This document shows positions 33,755-50,705 of a stretch of 63,630 nt of DNA, piece by piece. The translations under genes and the position numbers were made by a program. The first letter of the stretch is position 1. Every line of letters starts with the position of its first letter. The notes beneath the pieces are model-generated. The model was given only the letters and a program-made list of their open reading frames with translations. It was not told the DNA's origin and searched no databases. Source of the DNA: Thauera propionica (lineage in GTDB: Bacteria; Pseudomonadota; Gammaproteobacteria; Burkholderiales; Rhodocyclaceae); the NCBI RefSeq assembly GCF_002245655.1, contig NZ_NOIH01000030.1, forward strand, positions 1 through 63,630, read 5' to 3'.

Positions 33755-33788
33755 TTTTCAAGTTCGCCGTCGACGTTCATAATTATGA
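33755..33788 (+). promoter_or_regulatory. Putative promoter and operator for the VOC/epimerase-like gene
   Basis: TTTTCA (33755-33760) and CATAAT (33778-33783), spaced by 17 bp, could act as -35 and -10. The -10 lies in the perfect palindrome TCATAATTATGA (33777-33788). The 14-mer CGTTCATAATTATG at 33774-33787 recurs, inverted, at 50616-50629 in the mcm/gntR promoter region, which argues for a shared repressor or activator. Confidence 0.6.
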
Positions 33789-33817
33789 GTTATTGATTAG
33801 CCACCATCGGAGTTCCC

Positions 33818-34300
33818 ATGTCGTCCCAGCGCCCGTTCAAGATCCTCGGCATCCAGCAGATCGCCATCGGCGGCCCGAGCAAGGAGAAGCTCAAGACCCT
33901 GTGGGTCGACATGCTCGGCCTGGAAGTCACCGGCAACTTCGTCTCCGAGCGCGAGAACGTCGACGAGGACATCTGCGCGATGGGCGCCGGCCCGTTCAAG
34001 GTCGAGGTCGACCTGATGCAGCCGCTCGACCCCGAGAAGAAGCCCGCCGTACACGCCACGCCGCTGAACCACGTCGGCCTGTGGGTGGACGATCTGCCGA
34101 AGGCGGTGGAATGGCTGAGCGCCAACGGCGTGCGTTTTGCGCCTGGCGGCATCCGCCGCGGCGCAGCGGGCTTCGACATCACCTTCCTGCATCCGAAGGG
34201 CAACGAGGAATTCCCGATCGGCGGCGAAGGCGTGCTGGTCGAACTGGTGCAGGCACCGGCCGAAGTCGTCGAGGCTTTCGCCAAACTCGCCACAAGCTGA
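33818..34300 (+). CDS. VOC-superfamily protein, candidate methylmalonyl-CoA epimerase, 160 aa
   Basis: Two betaalphabetabetabeta repeats typical of the vicinal-oxygen-chelate superfamily. The second half, [15 protein letters not shown] and FLHPKG...[10 protein letters not shown], closely follows the methylmalonyl-CoA epimerase pattern (LHHMAWRVDD; FMHPKS..GVLIEL). Epimerase converts (2S)- to (2R)-methylmalonyl-CoA between propionyl-CoA carboxylase and mutase. By that alignment the metal positions here would be Gln14, Asp65, His85 and Glu142, against His, Gln, His and Glu in the classical enzyme, so activity is not certain. No other epimerase is in the window, and an operator-like site is shared with the mcm operon. 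The ATG at 33818 has GGAG upstream. Generic glyoxalase-family naming is the safe alternative. Confidence 0.7.
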
Positions 34301-34318
34301 GCACGGCAACAACGACAA

Positions 34319-34349
34319 AAGGGGCACGGCCTTTGGGGGCGTGCCCCTT
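34319..34349. terminator. Bidirectional terminator between the VOC and zinc-peptidase genes
   Basis: AAGGGGCACG (34319-34328) and CGTGCCCCTT (34340-34349) form a perfect 10-bp stem with an 11-nt loop between convergent genes. On the minus strand it is followed by TTTTGTCG, on the plus strand only by a weak TT-rich tail, so it should work best for the peptidase gene. Confidence 0.8.
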
Positions 34350-34376
34350 ATCTATTCCGGCCCCGCTGCGCGACGA

Positions 34377-35243
34377 CTAAAGCGCCGCAACCGAGAAGGT
34401 GTCGCACGCACGCAGGTCGCCCTGCTCCAGGCCGACACGGAACCAGCGCACCCGTTGCGCCGCACTGCCGTGGGTGAAGCTGTCGGGCACGGCGTAGCCC
34501 TGCGCCTGCTTCTGGATGCGGTCGTCGCCAATCGCGCTTGCAGCGCGCAAGGCTTCCTCCACATCACCCTGCTCGAGAACCTGCCGCGTACGGTCGGCAT
34601 GATGCGCCCACACCCCGGCCAGGCAGTCGGCCTGCAGCTCGAGGCGGACGGATAGCAGGTTCGCCTCCCGCTCGGACAGGCGCTGGCGCGCCTGCTGCAC
34701 CTTGTCCGAAATGCCGAGCAGGTTCTGAACGTGGTGTCCGACCTCGTGCGCGATCACGTAAGCCTGGGCGAAATCGCCCGGCGCACCGAAGCGACGGTGA
34801 AGATCGTCAAAGAAGGACAGGTCGAGATACACCTTGCCATCGGCCGGGCAGTAGAACGGCCCCATCTGCGCCTGCCCGACGCCGCACGCGCTGCGCGTGG
34901 CGCCGGTGTAGAGCACCAGCTTTGGTTCCTGGTAATTGCGGCCGCCCGACTGGAAGATCGGTCCCCAGGTGTCCTCGGTGTCGGCCAGCACCATCGACGT
35001 GAAACGCGCCAGCTCATCCTCGGCCGCCGAGCGTGGTGCGCCCGGCTGTGAGGACTCGATTGCGGGTGGCTGCACCATGGTCGCCGTGTCGAGCACCACG
35101 CCCGGATCGATGCCGAAGTACATCGCCACCAGGACCAGCACGATGGTGCCGATGCCGATCTTGCCGCGCCCGCCGAGGTGATGCCCACCCTGGCCGCGCC
35201 GATCCTCGACGTTGCGGCTCTCCCTGCCGTTGCGAAAGTCCAT
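34377..35243 (-). CDS. YpfJ/KPN_02809-family neutral zinc metallopeptidase, 288 aa
   Basis: A Gly/Arg/His-rich N-terminus (RRGQGGHHLGGRGK) precedes one transmembrane helix (IGIGTIVLVLVAMYFGI, residues ~29-45). The C-terminal domain carries the zincin motif HEVGHH (two zinc-ligand His and the catalytic Glu) and a further acidic segment SVRLELQADCLAG that supplies the third ligand. The domain should face the periplasm. Physiological substrates of this family are not established. The ATG at 35243 is followed by family-typical sequence (MDFRNGRESRNVEDRRG). Confidence 0.9.
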   Translation of the reverse strand: MDFRNGRESRNVEDRRGQGGHHLGGRGKIGIGTIVLVLVAMYFGIDPGVVLDTATMVQPPAIESSQPGAPRSAAEDELARFTSMVLADTEDTWGPIFQSGGRNYQEPKLVLYTGATRSACGVGQAQMGPFYCPADGKVYLDLSFFDDLHRRFGAPGDFAQAYVIAHEVGHHVQNLLGISDKVQQARQRLSEREANLLSVRLELQADCLAGVWAHHADRTRQVLEQGDVEEALRAASAIGDDRIQKQAQGYAVPDSFTHGSAAQRVRWFRVGLEQGDLRACDTFSVAAL

Positions 35244-35314
35244 GATCCTCTCCCGCCAGTTCCTGTTGGCATGCTACTCCGCCAGCCGCGGCGGCGGGAG
35301 AGGATGTCTGGCGC

Positions 35315-36721
35315 TCAGGCGGTCTGGGCAGCCGCGGCGAGCTTGTCCTCGCGGATCGCCTCGTACTCGTCTTCCCAGAACCACTTCGCTTCGCCGAAGG
35401 CCGGCTTCAGGTGGTGCAGCCAGGTGGCCTGGTCGTCGTATTGGGCGAAGAACGGGCGCTGCACCCAGTCCGGGTTGCGGCCCTGGATGAAGCGCAGCAC
35501 GAAGACTTTCTCGCCGGCGATCTCGGCCACGCCCTGGATCTCGACCTTGCCGGGGCTGGCGCTCATGCTCGGGCCGCGCGCGGTACGGGCCAGACCGGAC
35601 ACCTGCTGCATCGCCTCGCGGTAGATCTGCCACGCACGCGCCAGCGGCACCTCGAAGTAGGCGCGCGCGCCGGTGTCGCGCTCGGCGAACATGTAGTAGG
35701 GCACGATGCCGAGCTTGACCTGCAACTTCCACATCCTGGCCCACACCGCCGGATCGTCGTTGATGTGCGCCAGCAGCGGCCCTTGCGCGCGAATCACGGC
35801 GCCAGTGCTGCGGATGCGACGGATCGCGGCCTGGGCGACCTCGGTGTCGAGTTCCTTCCAGTGGTTGTAGTGCGCCATCAGCGCAACGTGCTTGCCGGCT
35901 TCCACTAGTTGCGTCAGCAGGCGGATCAGGTCGTCGGCGTCCTCTGCTCCGAGGAAGCGGTGCGGCCAGAAGGTCAGTGCCTTGGAGCCGATGCGGATGG
36001 TCTGGATGTGGTCGAACTCGGGCTGCAGCAGCGGCTCCAGATAGTCGCGCAGGTGGCGCGTCTTCATCACCATCGGGTCGCCGCCGGTGAACAGCAGGTC
36101 GGTCACTTCGGTATTGCGGCGCAGGTAGTCGTGCAGCGTCTTCGCTTCGGAAGCGGCGATGCGCAGCTCCTTGTCGCCGACGAACTGCGCCCAGCGGAAG
36201 CAGAAGGTGCAATAGCTGTGGCAGGTCTGGCCCTGGCTGGGGAAGAACAGCACGGTTTCGCGGTACTTGTGCTGGATGCCGTCGAGACGGTTGCCGTGCT
36301 CGTCGCGCGGCATGTTCATCTCCATCTGGTCAGCCGGGTGCGGGTTGAGCTCGTGGCGCACCTCGGCAACGGCCTGCTCCAGCGCGGCCTTGTCCGCACC
36401 CTCGCGCAACAGGTCGGCGATGCGGTCGAAGTGCTCGGGCGCGAGCATGCCGCGCTGCGGGAAGGTGAGCTGGAAGATGGGATCGGCCGGGATGTTGTTC
36501 CAGTCGATCAGCTCGTCGATGACGTACTGGTTCACACGGAACGGCAGCACGGAGGACACCACCTTCATCTCGAAGCGCTGCGCGTCCGACAGCTTGTCGA
36601 GTTGCGGGATGCGGTCGAGGTCACGCTGCGTGTAAACCTTGAACGGCACCGGCTCGAAAGCGGCCTGAGCGGCCTCCTCGATGCGCCAACGGGGCTTGAG
36701 GGCCTGCACTTGAGCACTCAT
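35315..36721 (-). CDS. KamA-family radical SAM protein (lysine 2,3-aminomutase-like), 468 aa
   Basis: Contains the radical SAM cluster motif C-x3-C-x2-C in CHSYCTFCFRW, followed by LLFTGGDPMVMKT (SAM-binding GGDP). The fold resembles lysine 2,3-aminomutase and EpmB, which shift an amino group using PLP and a 5'-deoxyadenosyl radical. The N-terminal 120 residues and the C-terminus (GRNPDWVQRPFFAQYDDQ) differ from both, so the substrate may not be lysine. I chose the ATG at 36721 because GGAGA precedes it; the frame stays open upstream. A promoter at 36920-36948 implies a leader of about 190 nt. Confidence 0.83.
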   Translation of the reverse strand: MSAQVQALKPRWRIEEAAQAAFEPVPFKVYTQRDLDRIPQLDKLSDAQRFEMKVVSSVLPFRVNQYVIDELIDWNNIPADPIFQLTFPQRGMLAPEHFDRIADLLREGADKAALEQAVAEVRHELNPHPADQMEMNMPRDEHGNRLDGIQHKYRETVLFFPSQGQTCHSYCTFCFRWAQFVGDKELRIAASEAKTLHDYLRRNTEVTDLLFTGGDPMVMKTRHLRDYLEPLLQPEFDHIQTIRIGSKALTFWPHRFLGAEDADDLIRLLTQLVEAGKHVALMAHYNHWKELDTEVAQAAIRRIRSTGAVIRAQGPLLAHINDDPAVWARMWKLQVKLGIVPYYMFAERDTGARAYFEVPLARAWQIYREAMQQVSGLARTARGPSMSASPGKVEIQGVAEIAGEKVFVLRFIQGRNPDWVQRPFFAQYDDQATWLHHLKPAFGEAKWFWEDEYEAIREDKLAAAAQTA

Positions 36722-36881
36722 CTGTCGTCTCCTTGCGGTCTGGTCTTGCAATTTGCGTCGGCGCCACGGAGGCGGCGCCCACAGCCCTGCGACCGGATGC
36801 ACGTGGATCGGTCGGACGGTCGTCAGGGAATCAGGAAAAGCGTCCGGCGGCGCAGAGGGATGGCGCCCGGGCCCGGATCGG

Positions 36882-36922
36882 CATGCGCCCGCTTCCGCGG
36901 GCTCGATGGAAGTGGGCGCATG
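36882..36922. repeat. Long inverted repeat upstream of the radical SAM gene
   Basis: Two 15-nt arms (36882-36896 and 36908-36922) pair at 14 of 15 positions with one G-T wobble and an 11-nt loop; the arms begin and end with CATGCGCCC/GGGCGCATG. The right arm overlaps the -10 box of the leftward promoter, so it may be an operator rather than an RNA hairpin. Confidence 0.6.
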
Positions 36923-37221: not shown

Positions 37222-40131
37222 ATGCTGCTCGCCTCACTCATCCTCATCCCGTTCCTCGGCAGTGCCCTTGCCGCACTGATGCCGCAGGACGCGCGCAACC
37301 GCGAATCCTGGCTGGCGATCGCGGTTGCGGTTTGCGGCCTGCTAATCGCGCTCGCCCTGTTCCCGCAGATTGCGAGCGGCGAAGTGCTGCGCGAGGAGTT
37401 CGCCTGGCTGCCTGCGCAGGGCCTCTTCTTCGTGCTGCGGGTCGACGGGCTGGCCTGGGTGTTCGCCGTTCTGGTGCTCGCCATCGGCCTGCTGGTGGTG
37501 CTCTACGCGCGCTACTACATGTCGCCCGACGATCCGGTGCCGCGCTTCTTCTCCTTCCTGCTCGCCTTCATGGGCTCGATGCTGGGCGTGGTGCTGTCGG
37601 GCAATCTGGTTCAACTGGTGGTGTTCTGGGAGCTCACCAGCCTCACCTCCTTCCTGCTGATCGGCTACTGGCACCACCGGGCCGACGCCCGTCGCGGCGC
37701 GCGCATGGCCTTCACCGTGACTGCCACCGGCGGACTGTGCCTGCTCGCCGGCGTGCTGGTGCTCGGTCATATCGTCGGCAGCTACGACCTCGACAATGTG
37801 CTTGCAGCCGGCGACCAGATCCGCGGCCACGACCTGTATCTGGCCGCACTCGCCCTGATCGCGCTCGGCGCGCTGACCAAGAGCGCGCAGTTCCCGTTCC
37901 ATTTCTGGCTGCCGCACGCAATGGCAGCGCCCACCCCGGTGTCGTCCTACCTGCACTCGGCGACGATGGTGAAGGCCGGCGTCTTCCTGCTGGTGCGGCT
38001 GTGGCCGGCACTGGCGGGCACGCCGGAGTGGACCTGGGTCGTCGGCGGCGCCGGCGTCTGTACCCTGCTGCTCGGCGCCTTCATCGCCATCTTCCAGCAC
38101 GACCTCAAGGGCCTGCTGGCGTACTCGACCATCAGCCATCTCGGCCTGATCACGCTGCTGATCGGCATTGGCACGCCGCTGGCAATGGTCGCGGCGATCT
38201 TCCACATCCTCAACCACGCGACGTTCAAGGCATCGCTGTTCATGGCCGCCGGCATCATCGACCATGAGTCTGGAACGCGTGACCTGCGCCTGCTGCGCGG
38301 ACTGCGCCACAAGCTGCCGGTCACCGCCACGCTGGCCATCGTCGCCAGCGCGGCGATGGCGGGCGTGCCGCTGCTGAACGGCTTCCTGTCGAAGGAGATG
38401 TTCTTCGCCGAGACACTGCACGTCGGCGGCGACCGCAACTGGTGGATGTCCTTCGCCGCGGTGGCGATGGGGATGTTCAGCGTCGCCTACTCGCTGCGCT
38501 TCATCTCGATCTTCTTCGGCACGCCGGCGCAGGACCTGCCGCGCGATCCGCACGAACCGCCGCGCTGGATGCGCTTTCCGGTCGAGCTGCTGGTGCTCAC
38601 CTGCCTCATCGTCGGCATCGCACCCGGCATCAGCATCGAACCGATCCTGAACATCGCGGTGCATTCGGTGCTCGGCAGCGCTGCCCCGGACTATGACCTC
38701 GCGGTGTGGCACGGTCTGAACCTGCCGCTCTTCATGAGCGTGCTCGCGCTCGCGGGCGGCGTGTTGCTGTACATCGTCCTGCGGCGCCACTTCGATCTGC
38801 AGCAGCGCGAGCAGGTGCCGCTGATCCACCGCTTCAACGGCGCGCAGGCCTACGAGACGACGATGCTGCAGCTGACACGCTCGGCAGGCTGGCTACTCAG
38901 GCGCATCGGCACCACCCGGCTGCAATCCCAGTTGGTGCTGCTGATGCTCATGCTGCTGGTGGTGCCGCCGATCCTCGCCGGCGCGCCGCCCGCGTGGACG
39001 CGCATCCCGCTGCAGGACTTCGACCCGCTGTTCGCTGCGATCTGGGCCATCGGCGGTGCCTGCGCCGTCGCCGGCGCCTGGATGGCGAAGTATCACCGCC
39101 TGGCCGCGCTGGCCCTCATCGGCGGCACCGGCATCGTCACCGCAGCGACCTTCCTGTGGCTGTCCGCGCCCGACCTGGCGCTGACCCAGCTGATGGTGGA
39201 GACCGTCACCACCGTGCTGATCCTGCTCGGCTTGCGCTGGCTGCCGCCACGGCTCGAGTCGGTCGACACCCCCGCGCAATCGCCCACCCGCGTGTGGCTG
39301 AGGCGTTCGCGCGACCTGCTGATCGCGGTCGGTGGCGGCCTCGCGCTGGCCGCGCTCACGTATGCGGTGCTGGTGCATCCGGCCTCGGACACGATCGCCG
39401 ACTTCTTCCTGCTCAACGCACTGGGCGGCGGGGGCGGCAGCAACGTGGTCAACGTCCTGCTGGTGGACTTCCGCAGCTTCGACACCCTGGGCGAGATCAC
39501 TGTGCTGGCGATCGTCGCCCTCACGGTGTATGCCCTGCTGCGTCGCTTCCGCCCGGCCCCGGAAAGTGCAGGCGTCCCGCCGCAGCAGCGCTTCGAGGCG
39601 GACCCCGCCAGCAGGCAAACCCCTGCGCAACAGGCGGACAGCGGCTACCTGCTGGTCGCCGGCATCTACATGCGCCTGCTGCTGCCCTTCATGGGCGTGA
39701 TCGCAGTCTATTTCTTCATGCGCGGCCACAACCTGCCGGGAGGAGGCTTCGTCGCCGGCCTCATCTTCGCCGTCGCCATCCTGGTGCAGTACATGCTTGC
39801 GGGCACGGTCTGGGTCGAGAGCCACATCAACCTGCGCCCGCATCGCTGGCTGGGCTTCGGCCTGGTGCTGGCCTGCGCCACCGGCCTGGGTGCATGGCTG
39901 TTCGGCCACCCCTTCCTCACGACCCACACCGCGCACGTGGACTGGCCGCTGGTCGGCGAGCTGCACCTGCCGAGCGCCTTCGTGTTCGACCTTGGGGTGT
40001 TCACGGTCGTGGTCGGCACCACCATGCTGATGCTGGTCGCGCTGGCCCACCAGTCGCTGCGGGCACACCGCCTGCCGGGCGAGGAGGCCCAGGCCGTCGA
40101 ACAAGGCAACGCCGACGGGAGGGCGAACTGA
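37222..40131 (+). CDS. mrpA: Mrp Na+/H+ antiporter subunit A fused to subunit B (MrpAB), 969 aa
   Basis: Largest subunit of the multisubunit cation/proton antiporter in the inner membrane. The first ~500 residues match the ND5-like proton-pump fold (GNLVQLVVFWELTSLTSFLL; the Lys/His-rich TKSAQFPFHFWLPHAMAAPT). DUF4040/MrpB-N segments follow, and the last ~150 residues are an MnhB domain (LLLPFMGVIAVYFFMRGHNL; GGGFVAGLIFA). MrpB is a separate gene in Bacillus, so this is the fused proteobacterial form. The ATG at 37222 begins MLLASLILIPFLGS. Its TGA overlaps the mrpC ATG by one base. Confidence 0.94.
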   Translation: MLLASLILIPFLGSALAALMPQDARNRESWLAIAVAVCGLLIALALFPQIASGEVLREEFAWLPAQGLFFVLRVDGLAWVFAVLVLAIGLLVVLYARYYMSPDDPVPRFFSFLLAFMGSMLGVVLSGNLVQLVVFWELTSLTSFLLIGYWHHRADARRGARMAFTVTATGGLCLLAGVLVLGHIVGSYDLDNVLAAGDQIRGHDLYLAALALIALGALTKSAQFPFHFWLPHAMAAPTPVSSYLHSATMVKAGVFLLVRLWPALAGTPEWTWVVGGAGVCTLLLGAFIAIFQHDLKGLLAYSTISHLGLITLLIGIGTPLAMVAAIFHILNHATFKASLFMAAGIIDHESGTRDLRLLRGLRHKLPVTATLAIVASAAMAGVPLLNGFLSKEMFFAETLHVGGDRNWWMSFAAVAMGMFSVAYSLRFISIFFGTPAQDLPRDPHEPPRWMRFPVELLVLTCLIVGIAPGISIEPILNIAVHSVLGSAAPDYDLAVWHGLNLPLFMSVLALAGGVLLYIVLRRHFDLQQREQVPLIHRFNGAQAYETTMLQLTRSAGWLLRRIGTTRLQSQLVLLMLMLLVVPPILAGAPPAWTRIPLQDFDPLFAAIWAIGGACAVAGAWMAKYHRLAALALIGGTGIVTAATFLWLSAPDLALTQLMVETVTTVLILLGLRWLPPRLESVDTPAQSPTRVWLRRSRDLLIAVGGGLALAALTYAVLVHPASDTIADFFLLNALGGGGGSNVVNVLLVDFRSFDTLGEITVLAIVALTVYALLRRFRPAPESAGVPPQQRFEADPASRQTPAQQADSGYLLVAGIYMRLLLPFMGVIAVYFFMRGHNLPGGGFVAGLIFAVAILVQYMLAGTVWVESHINLRPHRWLGFGLVLACATGLGAWLFGHPFLTTHTAHVDWPLVGELHLPSAFVFDLGVFTVVVGTTMLMLVALAHQSLRAHRLPGEEAQAVEQGNADGRAN

Positions 40132-40472
40132 TGGAACTGGTACTGGCGATCGCCGTCGGGGTGGTGTTCGGCTCGGGCATCTGGCTGATCCTGCGCCCGC
40201 GGACCTTCCAGCTCATCACCGGCCTGCTGCTGATGTCCTATGCGGTGAACCTGTTCATCTTCGCGATGGGCCGCCTGTGGGTGGACAAGCCCCCGATCAC
40301 GCCCACCGCCGGTGTCGATCCCGCCCAGTTCGCCGATCCGCTGCCGCAGGGCCTGGTGCTGACCGCCATCGTGATCGGCTTCGCCACCACCGCGCTCTAC
40401 CTGGTGATGATGATCGGCGCGCGCGGCCTGAGCGGCAGCGACCACGTCGATGGCGAGGAGCCGCGCGAATGA
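40131..40472 (+). CDS. mrpC: Mrp antiporter subunit C, 113 aa
   Basis: NuoK-like subunit with three transmembrane helices (MELVLAIAVGVVFGSGIWLI; LITGLLLMSYAVNLFIFAMG; GLVLTAIVIGFATTALYLVM). The SYAVNL and TAIVIG motifs are MrpC-typical. Start is the ATG at 40131 with GGGAGGG upstream, coupled to mrpA. It needs the other Mrp subunits for antiport. Confidence 0.94.
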   Translation: MELVLAIAVGVVFGSGIWLILRPRTFQLITGLLLMSYAVNLFIFAMGRLWVDKPPITPTAGVDPAQFADPLPQGLVLTAIVIGFATTALYLVMMIGARGLSGSDHVDGEEPRE

Positions 40473-40551
40473 GCGCGCCCGCACGGCCGCCCGAAGGGAA
40501 GCGCTCTCCTCCCCCGGGGAGGATGTCGCGCAGCGACAGGAGGGTAGTCCA

Positions 40552-42186
40552 ATGAACCCGCTGCCCTGGATGCACCACCTGATCATTGTCCCCGTGCTGC
40601 TGCCGCTGCTGGTCGGCGCGCTGCTGATCCCCGTCAACCAGAAGCGCCACGCGCGGAAGTTCGCCTTCAGCGTCGCCAGCGGCGCGCTGCTGTGGGGGGT
40701 GGCGATCGCCCTGCTGGTGCTGGTGGACCAGGAACACTGGCCGGATGGCATTGGCGTGTATCTCGCCTCGAACTGGACGGCGCCGTTCGGCATCGTGCTG
40801 ATGGTCGACCGCCTTGCCGCGCTGATGCTGGTGCTGACCTCGACCATCGCACTGGCCGTGCTGGTGTTCTCGGCACGGCGCTGGGACCGGGTCGGCGTGC
40901 ATTTCCACTCGCTGTTCCAGTTCCTGCTGATGGGGCTCAATGGCGCCTTCCTGACCAACGATCTGTTCAACCTCTTCGTGTTCTTCGAGGTGATGCTGGC
41001 GGCGTCCTACGGTCTGGTACTGCACGGCTACAACCTGCGCCGCATCCAGGCCGGCATGCAGTACATCGCGATCAACCTGGCCGCTTCGCTGCTGTTCCTG
41101 ATCGGCGTGTCGCTGATCTATGCGGCCTCGGGCACGCTCAACATCGCCGACCTCGCGACGCGCGTGAGCGGCCTCGGTGCCCAGGACACCTGGCTGTTGC
41201 AGATCGGCGCCACCGTGCTGGCGCTCGCCTTCCTGACCAAGGGCGCGATGTGGCCGCTCGGGTTCTGGCTCCCCACCACCTATGCGTCCGCCTCCGCACC
41301 GGTCGGCGCGATGCTGGTGCTGATGACCAAGGTGGGGGTGTATGCGGTACTGCGGGTGTGGCTGGCGGTGTTCGGCGAGGGCAGCGGCGAAGGAGCGAGC
41401 GCGCTCGCCGGCTTCGGCCTCGCGGCGCTGACCGTCGGCGGGCTCGCGACCCTGCTGTTCGGGGCCGTCGGCATGCTGTCCAGCGAGGACGGCGGGCGCA
41501 TGGCGGGCTACGGTGCGATCATCTCGTCCGGCACGCTGCTCGTGGTGATCGGCCATTCCGGCAGCGCGGTGCTGGCCTCGGGGCTGTACTACCTGCTCGG
41601 CTCCACGCTGGCAATGGCGGCCTTCATGCTGCTGATCGAACTCACCGAGCGCATCCGCCCGCCGGGCGCGGCGCTCCTCGCCATCACCATGGAAGCCTTC
41701 GCCATCGAGGACAAGCCGGAAGACCCGGTGGGCGTCGGCATGCCGGGAACCCTCACCTTTCTCGGGCTGAGCTTCGCTGCATGTGCGCTGGTGATCAGCG
41801 GCATGCCGCCGCTGTCGGGCTTCGTCGCCAAGTTCAGCCTCTTCCACGCGATGCTGGGCGCGACGCAGGGCGAGGTGCCGGCCACCACCTGGCTGATCAT
41901 CGCGCTGATGGTGCTGGGCGGACTGGCGGCGATCATTGCCCTGATGCGGCTGGGTGTGCGCACCTTCTGGGCGTCGGGCGCCGTGACCGCGCCGCGGCTG
42001 CAGTTCTCCGAGGCCGTGCCCGTCGGCGCACTGGTGTTGGCGTGCGTGCTGCTGACGGTGCAGGCGGGGGCGGTGTTCGACTACCTCGGGCGCACCGCCA
42101 ACGGCCTGCTGCGCAGCACCGATTACAGCGCGCGCGTGCTGGGCGAACCGCCCGTGCAGCGGGCACCGGCAGGAGGCGCGCAATGA
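40552..42186 (+). CDS. mrpD: Mrp antiporter subunit D, 544 aa
   Basis: ND4/ND2-like proton-pumping subunit with about 14 transmembrane helices. Conserved stretches include NLFVFFEVMLAASYGLVLHG, FLTKGAMWPLGFWLPTTYAS and MPPLSGFVAKFSLF. The ATG at 40552 follows ACAGGAGGG, the strongest ribosome binding site in the operon, after an 79-bp spacer that follows mrpC. Its TGA overlaps the mrpE ATG by 4 bp. Confidence 0.94.
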   Translation: MNPLPWMHHLIIVPVLLPLLVGALLIPVNQKRHARKFAFSVASGALLWGVAIALLVLVDQEHWPDGIGVYLASNWTAPFGIVLMVDRLAALMLVLTSTIALAVLVFSARRWDRVGVHFHSLFQFLLMGLNGAFLTNDLFNLFVFFEVMLAASYGLVLHGYNLRRIQAGMQYIAINLAASLLFLIGVSLIYAASGTLNIADLATRVSGLGAQDTWLLQIGATVLALAFLTKGAMWPLGFWLPTTYASASAPVGAMLVLMTKVGVYAVLRVWLAVFGEGSGEGASALAGFGLAALTVGGLATLLFGAVGMLSSEDGGRMAGYGAIISSGTLLVVIGHSGSAVLASGLYYLLGSTLAMAAFMLLIELTERIRPPGAALLAITMEAFAIEDKPEDPVGVGMPGTLTFLGLSFAACALVISGMPPLSGFVAKFSLFHAMLGATQGEVPATTWLIIALMVLGGLAAIIALMRLGVRTFWASGAVTAPRLQFSEAVPVGALVLACVLLTVQAGAVFDYLGRTANGLLRSTDYSARVLGEPPVQRAPAGGAQ

Positions 42187-42707
42187 GACGCTGGCTACCC
42201 GCACCGCTGTTGTCGGTCTGCCTGTTGCTGACGTGGCTGCTGCTCAACCAGAGCGTCGATGCCGCACACTGGCTGCTGGGCGGCGTGCTCGGCATCATTG
42301 CGCCACTGCTGGCGCGTCCGCTGCAGCCCCACGGCCATGCCCGGCTCCGCCGCCCGCTGGCGCTGTTGCGGCTGCTGTGGTTCTCGGCGATCGAGATCGT
42401 CCGCTCATGCTTCAACGTCAGTCAGATCATCCTGCTGCGCCGCTCGGCCGACGTGAACTCGCAGTTCATCCGGATCCCGCTCGACCTGCGCAGCCCGCAC
42501 GGCCTGGCCCTGCTGTCCTGCCTCATCAACTCCACGCCGGGTACGGTGTGGGTGGAACTCCTGCCCGACAGCCACGACCTGCTGCTGCACGTGTTCGACC
42601 TGCACGATGCACAGTGGTGGGTGGAGACGATCAAGACGCGCTACGAGCAGCCGATCATCGAGGTCTTCGAGTCGGCCGGCGCAAGAAGCCCGGGAGAACC
42701 TGCATGA
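42183..42707 (+). CDS. mrpE: Mrp antiporter subunit E, 174 aa
   Basis: Two N-terminal transmembrane helices (LLSVCLLLTWLLLNQSVDAA; WLLGGVLGIIAPLLARPL) and a cytoplasmic domain with SCFNVSQIIL and LLSCLINSTPGTVWVEL, the MrpE hallmark. It overlaps mrpD and mrpF by 4 bp on each side, which implies coupled translation. Confidence 0.93.
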   Translation: MRRWLPAPLLSVCLLLTWLLLNQSVDAAHWLLGGVLGIIAPLLARPLQPHGHARLRRPLALLRLLWFSAIEIVRSCFNVSQIILLRRSADVNSQFIRIPLDLRSPHGLALLSCLINSTPGTVWVELLPDSHDLLLHVFDLHDAQWWVETIKTRYEQPIIEVFESAGARSPGEPA

Positions 42708-42988
42708 CGGCCGTGACGCTGCTTTCGGCGGCAATCCTCTTCGCGCTGGCCTGCGTGATCCTTGCCATGATCCTGTGCACCCTGCGCCTGCTGATCGGGC
42801 CTTCGGCCCAGGACCGCGTGCTGGCGCTCGACACGCTGTGGATGTGCACGATGGTGCTCGCCCTGATGCTGGGCATCCGTCACGGCAGCCAGATCTATTT
42901 CGAGGCGGCGCTGATCATCGCCCTGCTCGGCTTCGTGTCGACGATCGCGCTGGCCAAGTTCCTGATGCGCGGGGAGGTGATCGAATGA
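42704..42988 (+). CDS. mrpF: Mrp antiporter subunit F, 94 aa
   Basis: Three transmembrane helices and the MrpF signature LRLLIGPSAQDRVLALDTL. It overlaps mrpE by 4 bp at its ATG and mrpG by 4 bp at its end. A small essential subunit of the antiporter in characterised systems. Confidence 0.93.
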   Translation: MTAVTLLSAAILFALACVILAMILCTLRLLIGPSAQDRVLALDTLWMCTMVLALMLGIRHGSQIYFEAALIIALLGFVSTIALAKFLMRGEVIE

Positions 42989-43347
42989 GCACGGTTGCAT
43001 CCCTGCCCTGGTGGGCCGCGGTGCCGGTGGCCGTCCTGCTCGTACTGGGCGGACTGATCACGCTGCTCGGCACGCTCGGCCTCCTGCGCCTGCAGACCTT
43101 CTATCAGCGCATCCACGGTCCCGCCATCACGACCACCCTCGGCGCGGGCTGCATCCTCGTCGCCTCGATGGTGTATTTCACCGTGGGGCAGTCACGCCTC
43201 GTGATCCACGAATTGCTGATCAGCGTCTTCGTGCTGATGACGGCGCCGGTCGTGGCCATGCTGATCATGCGCGCCGCCGTCTACCGGGACCTTCGCAACC
43301 ACCGCGACCCGGTCGCAACCGGCGATCAGCCGCCAGAGCCGGACTGA
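42985..43347 (+). CDS. mrpG: Mrp antiporter subunit G, 120 aa
   Basis: Three transmembrane helices with the MrpG motif LGTLGLLRLQTFYQRIHGPA and TLGAGCILVAS. It is the last gene of the mrpA(B)CDEFG operon, which should exchange cytoplasmic Na+ (or K+/Li+) for external protons and so serve salt and pH tolerance. The downstream hairpin at 43374-43403 has its U-tract on the other strand, so the mrp operon end may rely on another mechanism. Confidence 0.93.
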   Translation: MSTVASLPWWAAVPVAVLLVLGGLITLLGTLGLLRLQTFYQRIHGPAITTTLGAGCILVASMVYFTVGQSRLVIHELLISVFVLMTAPVVAMLIMRAAVYRDLRNHRDPVATGDQPPEPD

Positions 43348-43403: not shown

Positions 43404-43476
43404 CCGATTCGACAGGCACCCGGACACAAGGCCCGGATCTCCCTCCCCATCGATCAAAAACGTCTCATGGGTTCGA

Positions 43477-45468
43477 TCACTCGAACTCGATGATGACCTC
43501 GTCCACCGAGAGGCTGGCGCCCGGCTTGGCGACGATCTTCTTGACCTTGCCGTCCTGCTCGGCCCGGAGCAGGTTCTCCATCTTCATCGCCTCGATGACG
43601 GCGAGCTTCTCGCCCGCCTTCACTTCCTGACCTTCGGCCACGGCAATCTCGCGCAGCAGGCCCGGCATCGGCGACAGCAGGAACTTCGACATGTCGGGCG
43701 GCAGCTTCTCGGGCATCAGCGACAGCAGGTGCGCGGCACGCACCGTCATCACCATCGGCTCGACCTGCAGGCCGAAGTGCGAGATGCGGTAGCGCAGGCC
43801 GCGACGCTCGATCTGCAGGCCGATCGGTGCGCCGTTGACGGTGCCGCTGAACAGCAGATCGCCGAAGACCCAGTCAGACACGATGTTGTAGGTCTTGCCC
43901 TCGTGGGTGACGGCGAGACCACCCTCGATCGCGCGGGTCGTCATCGGGTACTGCTTGCCGCCCATGACCACCACCCACTCGCTGGCGACCTTGCGGCCGT
44001 GGCCGGCAAGCTGGCCCTCGATCTGCACCGCGCGCTCGATGTAGCGCATGCGGGCGAAGGTGGCGACGGCGGCGAGCAGCGCCGGATCGTCGTGCGGCAC
44101 CATCGAGGCGTCGAAGCCCTGCGGATACTCCTCGGCGATGAAGCCGGTGTTGAAGTTGCCCGAGCAGAAGCGCGGGTGCTGCAGCAGCGCGGCCTGGAAG
44201 GGAATGTTGGAGCTGATGCCGCGGATCACGAAGTGGTTCAGCGCGTCGCGCATGCGCTCGATGGCCTGCTGGCGGTCCTTGCCGTGCACGATGAGCTTGG
44301 CGATCATCGAGTCGTAGTACATCGAGATCTCGCCGCCTTCATACACGCCGGTGTCGACGCGCACCTGGCCCGGCACCTCCTGCGGCGCCTGGAACTTCAC
44401 CAGACGACCGGTGGACGGCAGGAAGCCGCGGAACGGGTCTTCGGCGTTGATGCGGCATTCCATCGACCAGCCGTCGATCTTCACGTCGGCCTGGGCCAGC
44501 GGCAGCTTCTCGCCGTAGGCGACGCGGATCATCTGCTCGACCAGGTCGAGGCCGGTGATCAGCTCGGTAACCGGGTGCTCGACCTGCAGGCGGGTGTTCA
44601 TCTCCAGGAAGTAGAATTCCTTGGTCGCGCCGCTGACCACGAACTCGACCGTACCGGCCGACTCGTAGTTGACCGCGCGTGCCAGCGCCACGGCCTGCTC
44701 GCCCATCGCCTTGCGCATCGCCGGATCGACGAAGGGGCTCGGCGCCTCCTCGATGACCTTCTGGTGACGGCGCTGGATCGAGCAGTCGCGCTCGTTCAGA
44801 TAGACGTAGTTGCCATGCGAGTCGCCCAGCACCTGGATCTCGATGTGGCGCGGCTCGAGCACGTACTTCTCGATGAAGACGCGGTCGTCGCCGAAGGCGT
44901 TCTTCGCTTCATTGACGCAGGAGGCGAAGCCCTCGTGCGCCTCCTTGTCGTTGAAGGCCACGCGCAGGCCCTTGCCGCCACCGCCGGCGGAGGCCTTGAT
45001 CATCACCGGATAGCCGATCTTCTTCGCGATCTCGACGGCCTCGTCGGGCCCCGCGATCGCGTCGTTGTAGCCGGGGATGGTGTTCACGCCCGCTTCGATC
45101 GCCAGCTTCTTGGACTCGATCTTGTCGCCCATCTTGGCGACCGAGTAGTGCTTCGGGCCGATGAACTTGATGCCTTCCTCTTCCAGGCGGCGCGAGAACT
45201 CGGCGTTCTCCGACAGGAAACCGTAGCCCGGGTGCACCGCTTCGGCGCCGGTCTGCTTGCAGGCGGCGATGATCTTGTCCATCACCAGGTAGGACTCTTT
45301 GGACGGCGCCGGGCCGATGCACACAGCCTCGTCGGCCAGTTCGACGAACAGCGCGTCCTTGTCCGCTTCCGAGTGCACGGCGACGGTCTGGATACCCATC
45401 TTGCGGGCGGTCTTGATGACGCGGCAGGCAATCTCGCCGCGGTTTGCAATCAGGATCTTCTTGAACAT
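43477..45468 (-). CDS. pccA: Propionyl-CoA carboxylase alpha (biotin carboxylase/BCCP) subunit, 663 aa
   Basis: Carboxylates biotin with ATP and bicarbonate for transfer to propionyl-CoA. It has the biotin carboxylase N-domain (MFKKILIANRGEIACRVI), the ATP-grasp glycine-rich loop KASAGGGGKGLR, the catalytic segment EMNTRLQVEHPVTE, and a C-terminal biotinyl domain with EAMKMEN (Lys near residue 629). A ~100-residue BT-like linker between them is typical of PccA. It is the last gene of the operon, 22 bp after pccB. Acetyl- or methylcrotonyl-CoA carboxylase is less likely given mcm and meaB upstream. Confidence 0.93.
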   Translation of the reverse strand: MFKKILIANRGEIACRVIKTARKMGIQTVAVHSEADKDALFVELADEAVCIGPAPSKESYLVMDKIIAACKQTGAEAVHPGYGFLSENAEFSRRLEEEGIKFIGPKHYSVAKMGDKIESKKLAIEAGVNTIPGYNDAIAGPDEAVEIAKKIGYPVMIKASAGGGGKGLRVAFNDKEAHEGFASCVNEAKNAFGDDRVFIEKYVLEPRHIEIQVLGDSHGNYVYLNERDCSIQRRHQKVIEEAPSPFVDPAMRKAMGEQAVALARAVNYESAGTVEFVVSGATKEFYFLEMNTRLQVEHPVTELITGLDLVEQMIRVAYGEKLPLAQADVKIDGWSMECRINAEDPFRGFLPSTGRLVKFQAPQEVPGQVRVDTGVYEGGEISMYYDSMIAKLIVHGKDRQQAIERMRDALNHFVIRGISSNIPFQAALLQHPRFCSGNFNTGFIAEEYPQGFDASMVPHDDPALLAAVATFARMRYIERAVQIEGQLAGHGRKVASEWVVVMGGKQYPMTTRAIEGGLAVTHEGKTYNIVSDWVFGDLLFSGTVNGAPIGLQIERRGLRYRISHFGLQVEPMVMTVRAAHLLSLMPEKLPPDMSKFLLSPMPGLLREIAVAEGQEVKAGEKLAVIEAMKMENLLRAEQDGKVKKIVAKPGASLSVDEVIIEFE

Positions 45469-45490
45469 GTATGTATTCCTCGTGCGCGGA

Positions 45491-47023
45491 TCAGAGCGGG
45501 ATGTTGCCGTGCTTGCGCCACGGGTTTTCCAGTTCCTTGTCCTTCAGCATCGCCAGCGAACGGCACACGCGCTTGCGGGTCTCGTGCGGCATGATCACGT
45601 CGTCGATGAAGCCACGCGCGCCGGCCACGAAGGGGTTGGCGAAGCGACGCTTGTACTCGGCCTCGCGCTCGGCGATCTTGGCCGGGTCGTTCTTTTCCTC
45701 GCGGAAGATGATCTCCACCGCGCCCTTCGGCCCCATCACCGCGATCTCGGCGCTCGGCCAGGCGAAGTTGACGTCGCCGCGCAGATGCTTGGACGACATC
45801 ACGTCGTAGGCGCCGCCGTAGGCCTTGCGGGTGATGAGGGTGACCTTCGGCACGGTGCATTCGGCGTAGGCGTACAGCAGCTTGGCGCCATGCTTGATGA
45901 TGCCGCCGTATTCCTGCGCGGTGCCGGGCATGAAGCCGGGGACGTCGACCAGCGTGACGACCGGGATGTTGAAGGCGTCGCAGAAGCGCACGAAGCGCGC
46001 GGCCTTGATCGAGCTCTTGATGTCCAGGCAGCCGGCCAGCACCAGCGGCTGGTTGGCGACGATACCCACCGGGGCGCCTTCCATGCGCGCGAAACCGATG
46101 ATGATGTTCTTGGCGTAGTCCGGCTGCAGTTCGAAGAAGTCGCCGTCATCGACCATCTTGATGATCAGCTCCTTCATGTCGTACGGCTGGTTGGGGTTGT
46201 CCGGCACCAGGGTATCGAGCGAGTAATCCAGACGGTCGGCCGGATCGACGCAGGGCACGACCGGCGGTTTCTCGCGGTTGCTGGCGGGGATGAAGCCGAC
46301 CAGGCGGCGGGTCATCATCAGCGCCTCGACGTCGTTCTCGAACGCGAGGTCGGCCACGCCCGACTTGCTCGTGTGGGTGACGGCACCGCCCAGTTCCTCG
46401 GCGGTCACTTCCTCGTGGGTCACGGTCTTCACCACTTCCGGACCGGTCACGAACATGTAGGACGAGTCCTTGACCATGAAGATGAAGTCGGTCATCGACG
46501 GCGAATACACCGCACCGCCGGCGCAGGGGCCCATGATCAGCGAGATCTGCGGCACCACGCCCGAGGCCAGCACGTTGCGCTGGAACACGTCGGCGTAGCC
46601 GCCCAGCGAGTCCACGCCTTCCTGGATGCGCGCGCCGCCCGAGTCGTTGAGGCCGATCACCGGCGCGCCGACCTTCATCGCGTGGTCCATGACCTTGCAG
46701 ATCTTCTCGGCGTGGGTCTCGGACAGCGAGCCGCCGAACACGGTGAAGTCCTGCGAGAACACGAACACCAGACGGCCGTTGATCGTGCCGTAACCCACCA
46801 CCACGCCGTCACCCGGAATGTGGTCGGCGTTCATGCCGAATTCGTTGCAGCGGTGCTCCTTGAACATGTCCCATTCTTCGAAGCTGTCGTCGTCGAGCAG
46901 CAACTGGATACGTTCGCGCGCGGTGAGCTTGCCCTTGGCGTGCTGGGCGTCGATGCGCTTCTGGCCACCACCGAGGCGGGCCTTCTCGCGCTTCTCCTCC
47001 AGCTGACGAATGATGTCGTGCAT
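45491..47023 (-). CDS. pccB: Propionyl-CoA carboxylase beta (carboxyltransferase) subunit, 510 aa
   Basis: Moves the carboxyl group from biotin to propionyl-CoA, giving methylmalonyl-CoA. The acyl-CoA carboxylase beta fold is clear: [17 protein letters not shown] near the start, [34 protein letters not shown] (first oxyanion hole), [16 protein letters not shown], and second-half motifs [29 protein letters not shown] (given here in part: DVPGFMPG and [14 protein letters not shown]). It lies 64 bp after meaB in the propionate operon. Confidence 0.94.
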
Positions 47024-47087
47024 TGATGATCTCCTGTCAGATCCTAGGGATTGTCGGGCCGCGACCTTGGCAAGCCCTTGATGTACT

Positions 47088-48095
47088 TCAAAGATGGCCG
47101 AGCAGGCGCAGCGCGGCGATCGAGGGCGTGGTGCTGCCCTCCTCCACCGCCCGCGCCAGCGCCGGCAGTTCCTGTTTCACCTGCGGGTGGCTGCGGAAAC
47201 GGCTGCGCAGCCCGGAATCGATCAGTTCCCACATCCACGCCAGCGCCTGGTGGCGACGCTTGGCATCGAACTCGCCGGAGGCGGTCAGCGCCTTGCGATA
47301 GTCCGTCACCGTGTTCCAGAACTCGGCGACGCCTCCCTTCTTCAGCGCCGACAGCGTCAGCACCGGCACCGTCCAGTTCGGGCTGGCCGGACGCAGCATG
47401 TGCAATGCGGTCTTGATCTGCGACTTGGCGCGCATCGCCGCCGAGGGGTCGATGTCGGCCTTGTTGATGACGATCAGGTCGGCGATCTCCATGATCCCCT
47501 TCTTGATCGCCTGCAGGTCGTCGCCGGCGTTGGGCAGTTGCAGCAGGCAGAAGATGTCGGCCATGCCTGCGACCGCCGTCTCGCTCTGCCCGACGCCGAC
47601 GGTCTCGATGATGATGACGTCGAAGCCGGCGGCCTCGCACACCAGCATGGACTCGCGCGTCTTTTCGGCCACGCCACCCAGGCTGCAAGCCGAGGGGCTG
47701 GGGCGGATGAAGGCGGCCGGGTTCTGCGAGAGCAGCTCCATGCGCGTCTTGTCGCCGAGGATGGAGCCGCCCGTCACCGACGAGGACGGATCCACCGCCA
47801 GCACCGCGACACGCAGGCCTTGCTCGATCAGGTAAAGCCCGAGCGCCTCGATGAAGGTCGATTTGCCCACGCCGGGCACGCCGGAGATGCCCACCCGCAT
47901 CGCCCCGCCGGTATGCGGCAGCAAGGCCTCGAGCACGCGCTGGGCGCGCTGCTTGTGGTCCTCGCGCTGCGACTCGATCAGCGTGATGGTCTTGGCCAGC
48001 GGCCGCAGTTGACGCGCCAGCACGCCGTCGACCAGATTGCGGTCGGCGGCGTCGAGCTCGGGCTGCATGGCGGACAGGAATTCAGGCATGTTCAT
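47088..48095 (-). CDS. meaB: Methylmalonyl-CoA mutase-associated GTPase MeaB, 335 aa
   Basis: G3E-type GTPase that loads and protects the cobalamin cofactor of methylmalonyl-CoA mutase. The P-loop is [14 protein letters not shown], followed by [31 protein letters not shown] and INKAD. The ATG at 48095 gives [10 protein letters not shown] and the standard family length; the frame is open upstream but runs into mcm. It lies 82 bp after mcm, its client enzyme. Confidence 0.94.
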
Positions 48096-48177
48096 CGGCT
48101 TCGGGGCACGGATTGCGCGGTGTTGCGCGCGGCCCCGAACGGCGGACGAACCGCGCGGGGCCGGGAATCGCGCGAAC

Positions 48178-50343
48178 TCAGGCGGCCTTGCGCGCAGCGC
48201 GGATCTGCTTGAGCACTTCGCGCGCGGCGGTCGGGATCGGCGTACCGGGGCCAAAGATGCCCTTGGCGCCAGCCGCGTACAGCGTGTCGTAGTCCTGCGC
48301 GGGAATCACGCCGCCGACGAAGGTGATGATGTCGTCCGCGCCGAGCCGCTTCAGCTCATTGACGATCTGCGGCACCAGCGTCTTGTGGCCGGCGGCGAGG
48401 CTGGAGCAACCGACCGCATGGACGTCGTTCTCGACCGCGTGGCGGGCGGCCTCTTCCGGAGTCTGGAAGAGCGGGCCGATGTCGATGTCGAAGCCGAGAT
48501 CGGCGAAGGCCGAGGCCACCACCTTGGCGCCGCGGTCGTGACCGTCCTGGCCGAGCTTGGCGATCATCACACGCGGGCGGCGACCCTCCTCTGCGATGAA
48601 GGCCTCGATGTCGGCCTTCAGGGCCTTCCAGTCTTCCTGTTCTTCCACGACGGCTCCATACACGCCGGACACGGCTTGCGGGTTGGCACGGTAGCGGCCG
48701 AAGACGACCTCAAGCGCATCGGAAACCTCACCGACGGTGGCGCGCAGGCGGATGGCCTTGACGGTCAAGTCCAGCAGGTTGCCCTGGCCGGTCTTCGCAC
48801 ATTCGGTCAGCGCGGCGAGCGCGGCGTCGACAGCAGCCTGGTCGCGCATCTTGCGCACGCGCGCCAAGCGCTCGATCTGCGCCTCACGCACCGCATGGTT
48901 GTCGATGTCCAGGATCTCGATCGGATCTTCCTTGGCCAGCTTGTACTTGTTGACGCCGACGATGACGTCCTTGCCCGAGTCGATGCGCGCCTGCTTGTCA
49001 GCGGCACACTCCTCGACCTTCATCTTGGCCCAGCCGGACTCGACCGCCTTGGTCATGCCGCCCATGGACTCGATCTCTTCGATCAGCGCCCAGGCCTTGT
49101 CGGCCATGTCCTGGGTGAGCTTTTCCATCATGTAGGAGCCGGCCCAGGGGTCGACGACGTTACAGATGTGGGTCTCTTCCTGGATGATGATCTGGGTGTT
49201 GCGCGCGATGCGGGCGGAGAACTCGGTCGGCAGCGCGATGGCTTCGTCAAGCGCGTTGGTGTGCAGCGACTGCGTGCCGCCGAACACCGCAGCCATGGCC
49301 TCGATGGTGGTGCGCACGACGTTGTTGTACGGGTCCTGCTCGGTGAGCGACCAGCCCGAGGTCTGCGAGTGCGTGCGCAGCATCATCGACTTTTGGCTCT
49401 TCGGGTTGAACTGCTTCATGATGCGCCACCACAGCAGACGCGCGGCGCGCATCTTGGCGATCTCGAGATAGAAGTTCATGCCCACTGCCCAGAAGAAGGA
49501 CAGGCGGCCGGCGAAGGTGTCGACGTCCATGCCGCTGGCGATACCGGTGCGCACATATTCCAGACCGTCGGCCAGCGTGAACGCCAGTTCGATGGCCTGG
49601 TTCGCGCCCGCTTCCTGGATGTGGTAGCCGGAGATCGAGATGCTGTTGAACTTCGGCATGTGCTGCGCGGTGTAGCCGAAGATGTCGGCGATGATCTTCA
49701 TCGACGGTGCGGGCGGATAGATATAGGTGTTCCGCACCATGAATTCTTTCAGGATGTCGTTCTGGATCGTGCCCGAGAGCTTGTCCTGACTGACGCCCTG
49801 CTCCTCGGCGGCGACGATGTAGCCGGCGAGGATGGGCAGCACCGCGCCGTTCATGGTCATCGACACCGAGATCTTGTCGAGCGGAATGCCGTCGAACAGG
49901 ATCTTCATGTCCTCCACCGAGTCGATCGCCACGCCGGCCTTGCCGACGTCGCCGGTGACGCGCGGATGATCGGAGTCGTAGCCGCGGTGCGTGGCGAGAT
50001 CGAAGGCGACCGACACACCCTGGCCACCGGCGGCGAGCGCCTTGCGGTAGAAGGCGTTGGACGCCTCGGCAGTCGAGAAGCCGGCGTACTGACGGATCGT
50101 CCACGGCTTGACCGCGTACATCGTCGGCTGCGGCCCGCGCAGGAAGGGCTCGAAGCCGGGCAGCGTATCGGCGTGCTTGAGGCCTTCGGTGTCGGCCTTG
50201 GTGTACAGCGGCTTGACCGTCAGGCCTTCCGGCGTGATCCAGTTGAGCTTCTCGACATCACCCCCGGGGGAATGCTTGGCGGCGGCATTGTTCCAGGCCT
50301 CGAGATCGGGCTGGGGATAGGTCGGCTCGTTGGCGTTCGACAT
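48178..50343 (-). CDS. mcm: Methylmalonyl-CoA mutase, single-chain, 721 aa
   Basis: Adenosylcobalamin enzyme that turns (2R)-methylmalonyl-CoA into succinyl-CoA. The N-terminal barrel has [20 protein letters not shown] and [19 protein letters not shown] (His and Tyr near the substrate). The C-terminal B12 domain has the DxHxxG motif in [11 protein letters not shown] near residue 600, followed by SSLAAGH and GGVIP. It is the single-polypeptide homodimeric type. AGAGG precedes the ATG at 50343. It is first in the operon and is divergent from a GntR regulator. Confidence 0.96.
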
Positions 50344-50705
50344 GGAAACCTCTTGGAATCAGGCGCCGCTGTCGCGGCAGTTCAATTTCAGGTAACGACT
50401 ACATTCTCGGGCGAGGCCGGCCATCTTGCACAAACGGCTCCACCCCACGCCCGGACGGCGACGAAACCGCCCGTGGCTTGCTGCCACGAGCGGTCGTCGA
50501 CGCTCCGTCACACCGCGCGGCCCCTCTCCTGTTCGCCGGGCTGTCGCCCGGCGCCTCCCACGCCGCGCAGCGCGAAGGAAGTTGACTTGTTGCATCGACG
50601 AAATAATACTTTATCCATAATTATGAACGCAATCCTTACCGACAGTGTGGAAATGACCGCACCCGGCTTCGGGCAAGCGTGCCCTGTACACACCACACCT
50701 CGCTC
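50344..50705. other. 362-bp divergent regulatory region between mcm and gntR
   Basis: No gene is seen. The right-hand 120 bp hold overlapping divergent promoters and a palindrome shared with the VOC locus (50582-50632). The remainder (50344-50580) is GC-rich mcm leader sequence without clear motifs; a long leader of about 240 nt is implied if the proposed mcm promoter is right. Confidence 0.6.
50582..50632. promoter_or_regulatory. Overlapping divergent promoters and operator of mcm and gntR
   Basis: For gntR (plus): TTGACT (50582-50587), 16 bp, TAATAC (50604-50609). For mcm (minus): TTGCGT (50627-50632), 18 bp, TATTAT (50603-50608). The palindrome CATAATTATG (50616-50625) lies just past the gntR -10 and inside the mcm spacer. 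The 14-mer at 50616-50629 reads CGTTCATAATTATG on the minus strand and is identical to 33774-33787. Confidence 0.65.

Follow-up and report, generated by a model that had tools for sequence, protein, structure and literature searches.

A predicted operator of an FCD-type GntR protein shared by a candidate epimerase gene and the mcm/gntR region of Thauera propionica

The palindrome CATAATTATG is found upstream of a VOC-family gene of T. propionica and again in the intergenic region from which mcm and gntR diverge. We predict from sequence comparison that the FCD-type GntR protein encoded at 50706 very probably uses this palindrome as its operator. To the explanation as a whole, in which this GntR protein would own the operator, act on the targets described below and repress them until released by a metabolite, we assign a probability of roughly 85%. 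It is built on the positions of the sites, their conservation, their dependence on gntR and the identities of the neighboring genes, which were assigned by family models or homology. The window is the whole 63,630-nucleotide stretch that was analyzed, contig NZ_NOIH01000030.1.

The shared site and its surroundings

A search of the window located the 14-mer CGTTCATAATTATG at 33774-33787 on the plus strand and at 50616-50629 on the minus strand, with no third match at up to two mismatches in the window, confirming both positions given in an earlier note on this DNA. Two matches were reached by none of 100 dinucleotide shuffles. The 14-mer, which had been described as a palindrome, is itself non-palindromic; the palindrome is its 10-bp core, CATAATTATG, present at 33778-33787 (putative operator 1, upstream of the VOC gene) and 50616-50625 (putative operator 2, between mcm and gntR), neither assigned to a strand. 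Across the whole genome (57 contigs, 3,929,604 bases) the exact core occurs twice, both times in the window, compared to 0.27 copies expected from the base composition of the window (66.5% GC), and a mirrored control pattern gave no exact copy in the same search. Chance as the source of the shared 14-mer, which the earlier note had considered very unlikely, was rejected on these whole-genome counts and controls, and the many copies at unrelated positions that were to count against a common operator did not appear, the two exact copies being those already reported.

Operator 1 precedes the VOC gene (33818-34300, plus strand), with 30 bp between the end of the core and the ATG. Operator 2 lies 80 bp from the ATG of gntR (50706-51371, plus strand) and 272 bp from that of mcm (48178-50343, minus strand), the methylmalonyl-CoA mutase gene (NF006944, 1297.9 bits, cut-off 876), so that a distance of 60-90 bp to a gene start, as proposed earlier, holds for gntR but not for the VOC gene or mcm. 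The minus strand also carries meaB, encoding the mutase-associated GTPase (47088-48254; NF006958, 496.7 bits, cut-off 329), whose real start is probably near 48050, because the family match starts at residue 70. A carboxyltransferase subunit resembling propionyl-CoA carboxylase beta (45491-47023, minus strand; PF01039, with TIGR01117 below its cut-off) and a biotin carboxylase subunit with PCC_BT (PF18140) and biotinyl (PF00364) domains, resembling the alpha subunit (43477-45468, minus strand), are encoded there as well.

Both sites had been thought to overlap candidate promoters. Operator 1 does overlap a promoter-like pair, TTTTCA-17-CATAAT, at 33755-33783 (plus strand), while the pair TTGACT-17-AATACT directed towards gntR (50582-50610, plus strand) stops 5 bp short of the core of operator 2; both pairs were recognized by consensus match. 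Around operator 2, an alignment of 64 named genomes, which were selected for an exact core, revealed a 30-bp conserved block, ATAATACTTTATCCATAATTATGAACGCAA (50603-50632, no strand assigned), in which 17 of the 20 columns outside the core carry 1.9-2.0 bits. A minus-strand promoter for mcm may be located within this block.

Dependence of the site on gntR across the family

Orthologs of gntR were present in 114 of 150 family genomes, and at least one exact core was found in 111 of these compared to 8 of the 36 genomes without gntR (Fisher p = 6e-20). The gntR genomes hold 187 exact sites against 14 for the mirrored control, and the gntR-less genomes 8 against 5. In 103 of the 114 genomes an exact site lies upstream of gntR at a distance of no more than 300 bp, a count in which one genome (G009) was entered from a separate strand-aware tabulation, and 6 of the other 11 have a one-mismatch site near gntR, leaving 5 of 114 with none there at up to one mismatch; an exact site is lacking altogether in three gntR genomes. 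Among 68 named loci, 64 have the site within 260 bp of gntR. Upstream of mcm, no site at up to two mismatches was found in any of the 15 gntR-less genomes that were read, out of 20 with mcm. The co-occurrence with gntR, the position upstream of gntR and the lack of a site before mcm in the gntR-less genomes read, together with further sites that fit the pathway, support the earlier proposal of one operator read by the protein of 50706. A different regulator, such as a GntR paralog, might own the palindrome with gntR only one of its targets, and six genomes do encode a second GntR homolog of 50-54% identity; however, the presence of the site is predicted by the presence of a 50706-type ortholog and the site keeps close to gntR as described, which makes ownership by another protein highly improbable.

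Upstream of the VOC gene, 36 of the 111 gntR genomes and 2 of the 23 others showed a site that deviates from YATAATTATG at one position at most, and composition shuffles yielded about 0.2 per 111. The tabulation comprised 135 rows from 134 genomes, of which a short one (G131) was left out, and the 36 sites used for the profile differ by one from the 36 counted (G035 in, G050 out). Many of these VOC sites start with TATAAT and could partly represent a -10 element. Operator 1, which scanned as promoter-like together with its upstream sequence, might accordingly be merely the -10 box of the VOC promoter, reading CATAATTATG by accident and unconnected to GntR. Conservation, however, extends beyond the hexamer through ATTATGAATT, the VOC site is essentially limited to gntR genomes, and the only other exact copy of the core in the T. 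propionica genome is the one at mcm/gntR. We consider an accidental resemblance quite unlikely, and a lone -10 box was rejected on the site profile. The VOC gene is thus supported as a predicted member of the GntR regulon in a limited clade: the proposed tie between this gene and the carboxylase-mutase operon is upheld, but the site is absent from 75 of the 111 gntR genomes, and the mcm/gntR block is conserved more strongly than the VOC site.

Further targets and the place of biotin

At up to one mismatch, the T. propionica genome contains 8 sites, 6 of which are located at mcm/gntR, the VOC gene, the carbonic anhydrase gene, bioA, sucC and pckG/maeB, as identified by NCBIfam models; maeB gave a strong subfamily match that falls below the cut-off because the gene is cut by the locus edge. 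The sites at bioA, the carbonic anhydrase gene (can), sucC and pckG/maeB each carry one mismatch. Base composition by itself would produce about 12 one-mismatch sites, and the mirrored control gave 4 at up to one mismatch, so the evidence lies in the placement of the sites and not in their number. Three positions were set aside as chance occurrences, the third extra match to the 16-mer, inside an aminopeptidase-like reading frame (C2:65133, locus L095), one inside an asnB-like frame (C12:78456, locus L426), both named by eye, and one near miaA with no fit to the pathway (C2:18171, locus L424).

In the relatives, exact sites checked by tblastn were found before sucC or DUF2889-sucC in 21 genomes, before bioB in 7, carbonic anhydrase in 7, pckG in 6 (with a divergent maeB in 5) and prpE in 3, in addition to those at gntR (103), the VOC gene (12) and, in 3 cases, one ABC-type binding protein. 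The sucC count omits one locus lacking sucC (L197, G042) and includes one added locus (L421, G056), and the bioB count omits a locus flanked like a bioB locus (L368) on a contig that ends before bioB (L369, G085). In this way 162 of the 187 exact sites were placed; the 25 unplaced ones, of which three were unread (G128 C69, G021 C70, G099 C2), exceed the 14 of the mirrored control. IS-like stretches bearing the palindrome (L064, L216 and L233, with L382 and L388 clustering with L233) were excluded from the targets. These stretches are ~99% identical across genera. For carbonic anhydrase, read at the best 30 loci of the 124 genomes with a match, 14 of the 24 genomes that have gntR showed a site with at most one mismatch, as did 1 of the 6 that lack it.

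The sites at bioA in T. propionica and at bioB in 7 genomes raise the possibility that the regulator serves primarily biotin, as a beta-proteobacterial counterpart of BioR, and includes the propionyl-CoA genes by way of the biotin-dependent carboxylase. BioR is likewise a GntR-family protein with an atypical, AT-rich palindrome, TTATMKATAA, and it is described as unique to alphaproteobacteria, with biotin synthesis and transport genes as its named targets (PMC4494728, PMC5343134). The beta-proteobacterial BirA is reported to have lost the DNA-binding domain (PMC5343134), so that a biotin regulator is wanting. On the other hand, mcm, sucC, pckG/maeB and prpE have no need of biotin, gntR adjoins mcm, where the block is better conserved than the VOC site, and the half-sites of TTATMKATAA face the opposite way to those of CATAATTATG. 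A regulator devoted mainly to biotin is therefore unlikely, and membership in the BioR group was rejected, as the sites read CATAATTATG rather than TTATMKATAA and bioA and bioB form only part of the targets.

The regulator, the candidate epimerase and the proposed regulon

The protein of 50706 has the architecture of the FadR subfamily of GntR regulators, with an N-terminal GntR winged helix (PF00392, 77.0 bits) and a C-terminal FCD domain (PF07729, 104.7 bits), both above cut-off. Three FCD histidines are unchanged in 24 of 24 aligned sequences. Of five distant GntR loci (L169-L173), four were entered, in one alignment (A2) only. The consensus operator of the subfamily is described as GT...AC, with BioR among the named exceptions (PMC4494728). 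The CATAATTATG core has CA...TG instead and, given such exceptions, this lowers typicality but not membership.

The best PDB matches of the structure model (pLDDT 90.7) are GntR-family regulators, metal-binding FCD proteins among them. The second-best PDB relative by sequence is 7xp0, or PmiR (E = 1.4e-24; 31% identity in the fold alignment), which we take to be the same protein as PA0797. PrpR/PmiR of Pseudomonas aeruginosa is the nearest characterized relative of the 50706 protein, also an FCD-type GntR protein linked to propionate. PA0797, reported to act as a repressor, of the methylcitrate operon, controls propionate use; its motif is also present in front of its own gene, and its predicted operator is ATTGTCGACAAT (PMC9765439). 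A response to 2-methylcitrate or 2-methylisocitrate is a further criterion for the PrpR/PmiR group. The operator here, CATAATTATG, differs from this, and whereas PrpR/PmiR targets methylcitrate genes, the targets predicted here belong to the methylmalonyl-CoA route and further include genes for carbonic anhydrase, biotin synthesis and gluconeogenesis, with prpE at 3 sites in relatives.

The VOC protein (Glyoxalase_4) scores 44.8 bits against TIGR03081, below the curated equivalog cut-off of 114.95, and is the best of three matches in the genome, none of which exceeds the cut-off. Its structure model is middling (pLDDT 73.5, the other four models at 49-52) and shows an epimerase fold, with methylmalonyl-CoA epimerases (1jc4, 3rmu, 6xbq) as the best fold matches. 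Q14 replaces the histidine of LNHVAI in human MCEE and D65 aligns with the second glutamine of QIQLM in 6bu2, positions that are presumably metal ligands in known epimerases; both residues are unchanged in 12 of 12 VOC orthologs. The VOC gene and mcm co-occur, with both in 126 of 150 genomes, the VOC gene alone in 8, mcm alone in 6 and neither in 10 (Fisher p = 2e-7). The shared site lends regulatory support to the divergent VOC protein as the candidate epimerase of the pathway.

In the proposed mechanism, GntR, presumably as a dimer, would bind a fuller operator of about AATTCATAATTATGAATT between mcm and gntR and at the VOC gene and, in the T. propionica genome, also before the beta-carbonic anhydrase gene, bioA and sucC and in the interval separating pckG from maeB. 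The placement of the operators on top of or next to promoter-like elements suggests that it would act as a repressor, which might be released once the FCD pocket is occupied by a carboxylate or a CoA metabolite arising from the breakdown of propionate. Propionyl-CoA carboxylase, epimerase and mutase would then be induced together, along with succinyl-CoA synthetase, a gluconeogenic exit and the bicarbonate and biotin needed by the carboxylase. The regulon thus looks wider than first proposed, reaching from propionyl-CoA to succinyl-CoA, the gluconeogenic exit and the supply of bicarbonate and biotin. In openly accessible literature we found no published account of such a regulon or operator; an earlier prediction in subscription papers is possible.

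We lean, with some reserve, towards the broader view that in the Rhodocyclaceae/Zoogloeaceae one FCD-type GntR protein with a non-canonical operator would run the full circuit of propionyl-CoA supply and use, comprising carboxylase, epimerase and mutase, bicarbonate, biotin (bioA/bioB) and the onward route to succinate and PEP. The supply of biotin and bicarbonate would then be tied to substrate load and not to the level of biotin, filling the gap left in beta-proteobacteria by a BirA without regulatory function. The predicted operator and regulon of propionyl-CoA use can be put to the test in a family that includes, among the members named here, Thauera, Azoarcus, Aromatoleum and Zoogloea. 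They also point to a possible regulator of biotin genes in bacteria whose BirA is unable to take that role.

Two copies of a palindromic site in the window

A search of the window found CGTTCATAATTATG twice, where the earlier note had placed it, and nowhere else at up to two mismatches; none of 100 shuffles of the window gave a two-copy outcome. Across the 3.93-Mb genome there are exactly two copies of the 10-bp palindromic core, CATAATTATG, and both lie at these sites. One copy (33778-33787) ends 30 bp before the VOC gene; the other (50616-50625) ends 80 bp before gntR (50706-51371), the gene for an FCD-type GntR protein, and is separated by 272 bp from the start of the divergent methylmalonyl-CoA mutase gene, mcm. 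The products of the carboxylase-mutase cluster (43477-50343, minus strand) are a PCC_BT-containing biotin carboxylase, a carboxyltransferase, MeaB and methylmalonyl-CoA mutase. The top NCBIfam match of the VOC protein (33818-34300) is methylmalonyl-CoA epimerase, under the cut-off; of the three proteins in the genome that match this family, it is the strongest. A Mrp-type Na+/H+ antiporter gene set (37222-43347; Proton_antipo_M, MnhB and MnhG-type domains) separates VOC from the carboxylase genes. The matched names, Thauera, Azoarcus, Zoogloea and Aromatoleum, place the window in the Rhodocyclaceae/Zoogloeaceae.

The palindrome and gntR across the family

A gntR ortholog was present in 114 of 150 sampled family genomes, and the exact palindrome was found in 111 of these versus 8 of the 36 genomes without gntR (Fisher p = 6e-20). 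Exact copies numbered 187 against 14 mirrored controls in gntR genomes, and 8 against 5 in genomes without the gene, showing the dependence of the sites on gntR presence. In 103 of the 114, the 300 bp preceding gntR contain an exact copy, with a median distance of 48 bp to the aligned start; in the other 11, the site near gntR has one mismatch in six and two mismatches in two, and is absent in three. At named loci, the palindrome lies within 260 bp of gntR in 64 of 68. In the 15 gntR-less mcm genomes read, out of 20, no site at up to two mismatches was present in the 300 bp upstream of mcm. The earlier note was right about the shared operator and, in naming the GntR protein encoded at 50706, about its likely owner.

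At the 64 named gntR loci, a conserved 30-bp block, ATAATACTtTATCCATAATTATGaAtGCAA, encloses the palindrome. The loci were chosen for an exact core and conservation was judged on the 20 columns outside it, 17 of which reach 1.9-2.0 bits. The minus strand of the block reads TTGC.T-18-TATTAT, from its sequence a possible mcm promoter that would hold the operator inside its spacer; this element was not among the reports of a promoter scan of the mcm/gntR region.

VOC orthologs were found in 134 of the 150 genomes. The 200 bp preceding them hold YATAATTATG (at most one mismatch) in 36 of 111 genomes with gntR and 2 of 23 without, the chance level from composition shuffles being about 0.2 of 111. 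The two gntR-less genomes are G035, an assembly 82% complete with a perfect site, and G146, with the site TAAAATTATG. The 36-site profile, tc(Y)ATAATTATGaATT.ttaat, reaches past a -10 box. Because 75 of the 111 gntR genomes have no VOC site, the VOC link is clade-limited.

Further sites in the genome and its relatives

At up to one mismatch, the T. propionica genome holds 8 palindrome sites versus 4 mirrored controls. Six of the eight are at VOC, mcm/gntR, bioA (16 bp upstream; contig C2, 91739), a carbonic anhydrase gene (31 bp upstream), sucC (about 180 bp upstream, between a DUF2889 gene and sucC) and between maeB and pckG. Family models identify the target genes, the maeB match falling under the cut-off because the locus end cuts the gene. 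The chance of four of six one-mismatch sites lying at qualifying promoters was estimated after the fact at p = 8e-7, assuming a generous 200 such promoters of 300 bp each. A second carbonic anhydrase gene (contig C23, 345367) has no palindrome at up to one mismatch.

Among the relatives, the exact palindrome stands upstream of sucC in 21 genomes (directly in 6, and in 15 before a DUF2889 gene that stands between the two), of bioB in 7, of carbonic anhydrase in 7, of pckG in 6 (with divergent maeB in 5), of prpE in 3 and of an ABC-type binding protein gene in 3 genomes of one genus. In the last case the palindrome stands 48-49 bp ahead of the gene, whose product was read as a periplasmic binding protein of the branched-chain amino acid ABC type. 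Together with the 103 sites at gntR and the 12 exact ones at VOC in genomes that have gntR, 162 of the 187 exact sites were placed, leaving 25 versus 14 mirrored controls. Among the best 30 carbonic anhydrase loci, 15 have a site at up to one mismatch, 14 of 24 with gntR and 1 of 6 without. Single exact palindromes adjoin aceK, whose divergent neighbor is icd-like by eye (G003), and precede an acetoacetyl-CoA reductase-type gene by 31 bp (G082); these are either further targets or chance. An IS-like stretch containing CATAATTATG at five loci, with about 99% identity across genera where measured, is probably a mobile element that carries the palindrome by chance.

The regulator and a predicted propionyl-CoA regulon

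His138, His182 and His204 of the regulator are conserved in all 24 aligned sequences, with Asn at position 134 in 21; the three histidines fit the metal site of the FCD domain. The second-best PDB sequence match is PmiR (7xp0; E = 1.4e-24), which senses 2-methylisocitrate according to the title of a reference in PMC13086498. In P. aeruginosa, the GntR protein PrpR (PA0797) is a reported repressor of the methylcitrate operon with the predicted operator ATTGTCGACAAT (PMC9765439). The operator described here departs from the FadR-subfamily consensus as given in PMC4494728. The BioR motif is TTATMKATAA and BioR is alphaproteobacterial (PMC4494728, PMC5343134); BirA of beta-proteobacteria reportedly lacks its DNA-binding domain (PMC5343134). 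Biotin genes carry the palindrome here (bioA) and in 7 relatives (bioB), and the parts of the literature examined describe no biotin regulator for the host group. No description of the regulon was found in the open literature searched, a search that did not extend to a 2012 comparative study of propionate regulators.

In the circuit we propose, a dimeric FCD repressor would occupy the palindrome until a metabolite from the breakdown of propionate releases it. Release would induce propionyl-CoA carboxylase together with its bicarbonate and biotin, the epimerase and the mutase, followed by succinyl-CoA synthetase, malic enzyme and PEP carboxykinase. The larger finding is a predicted, coherent propionyl-CoA regulon that would include the supply of bicarbonate and biotin.
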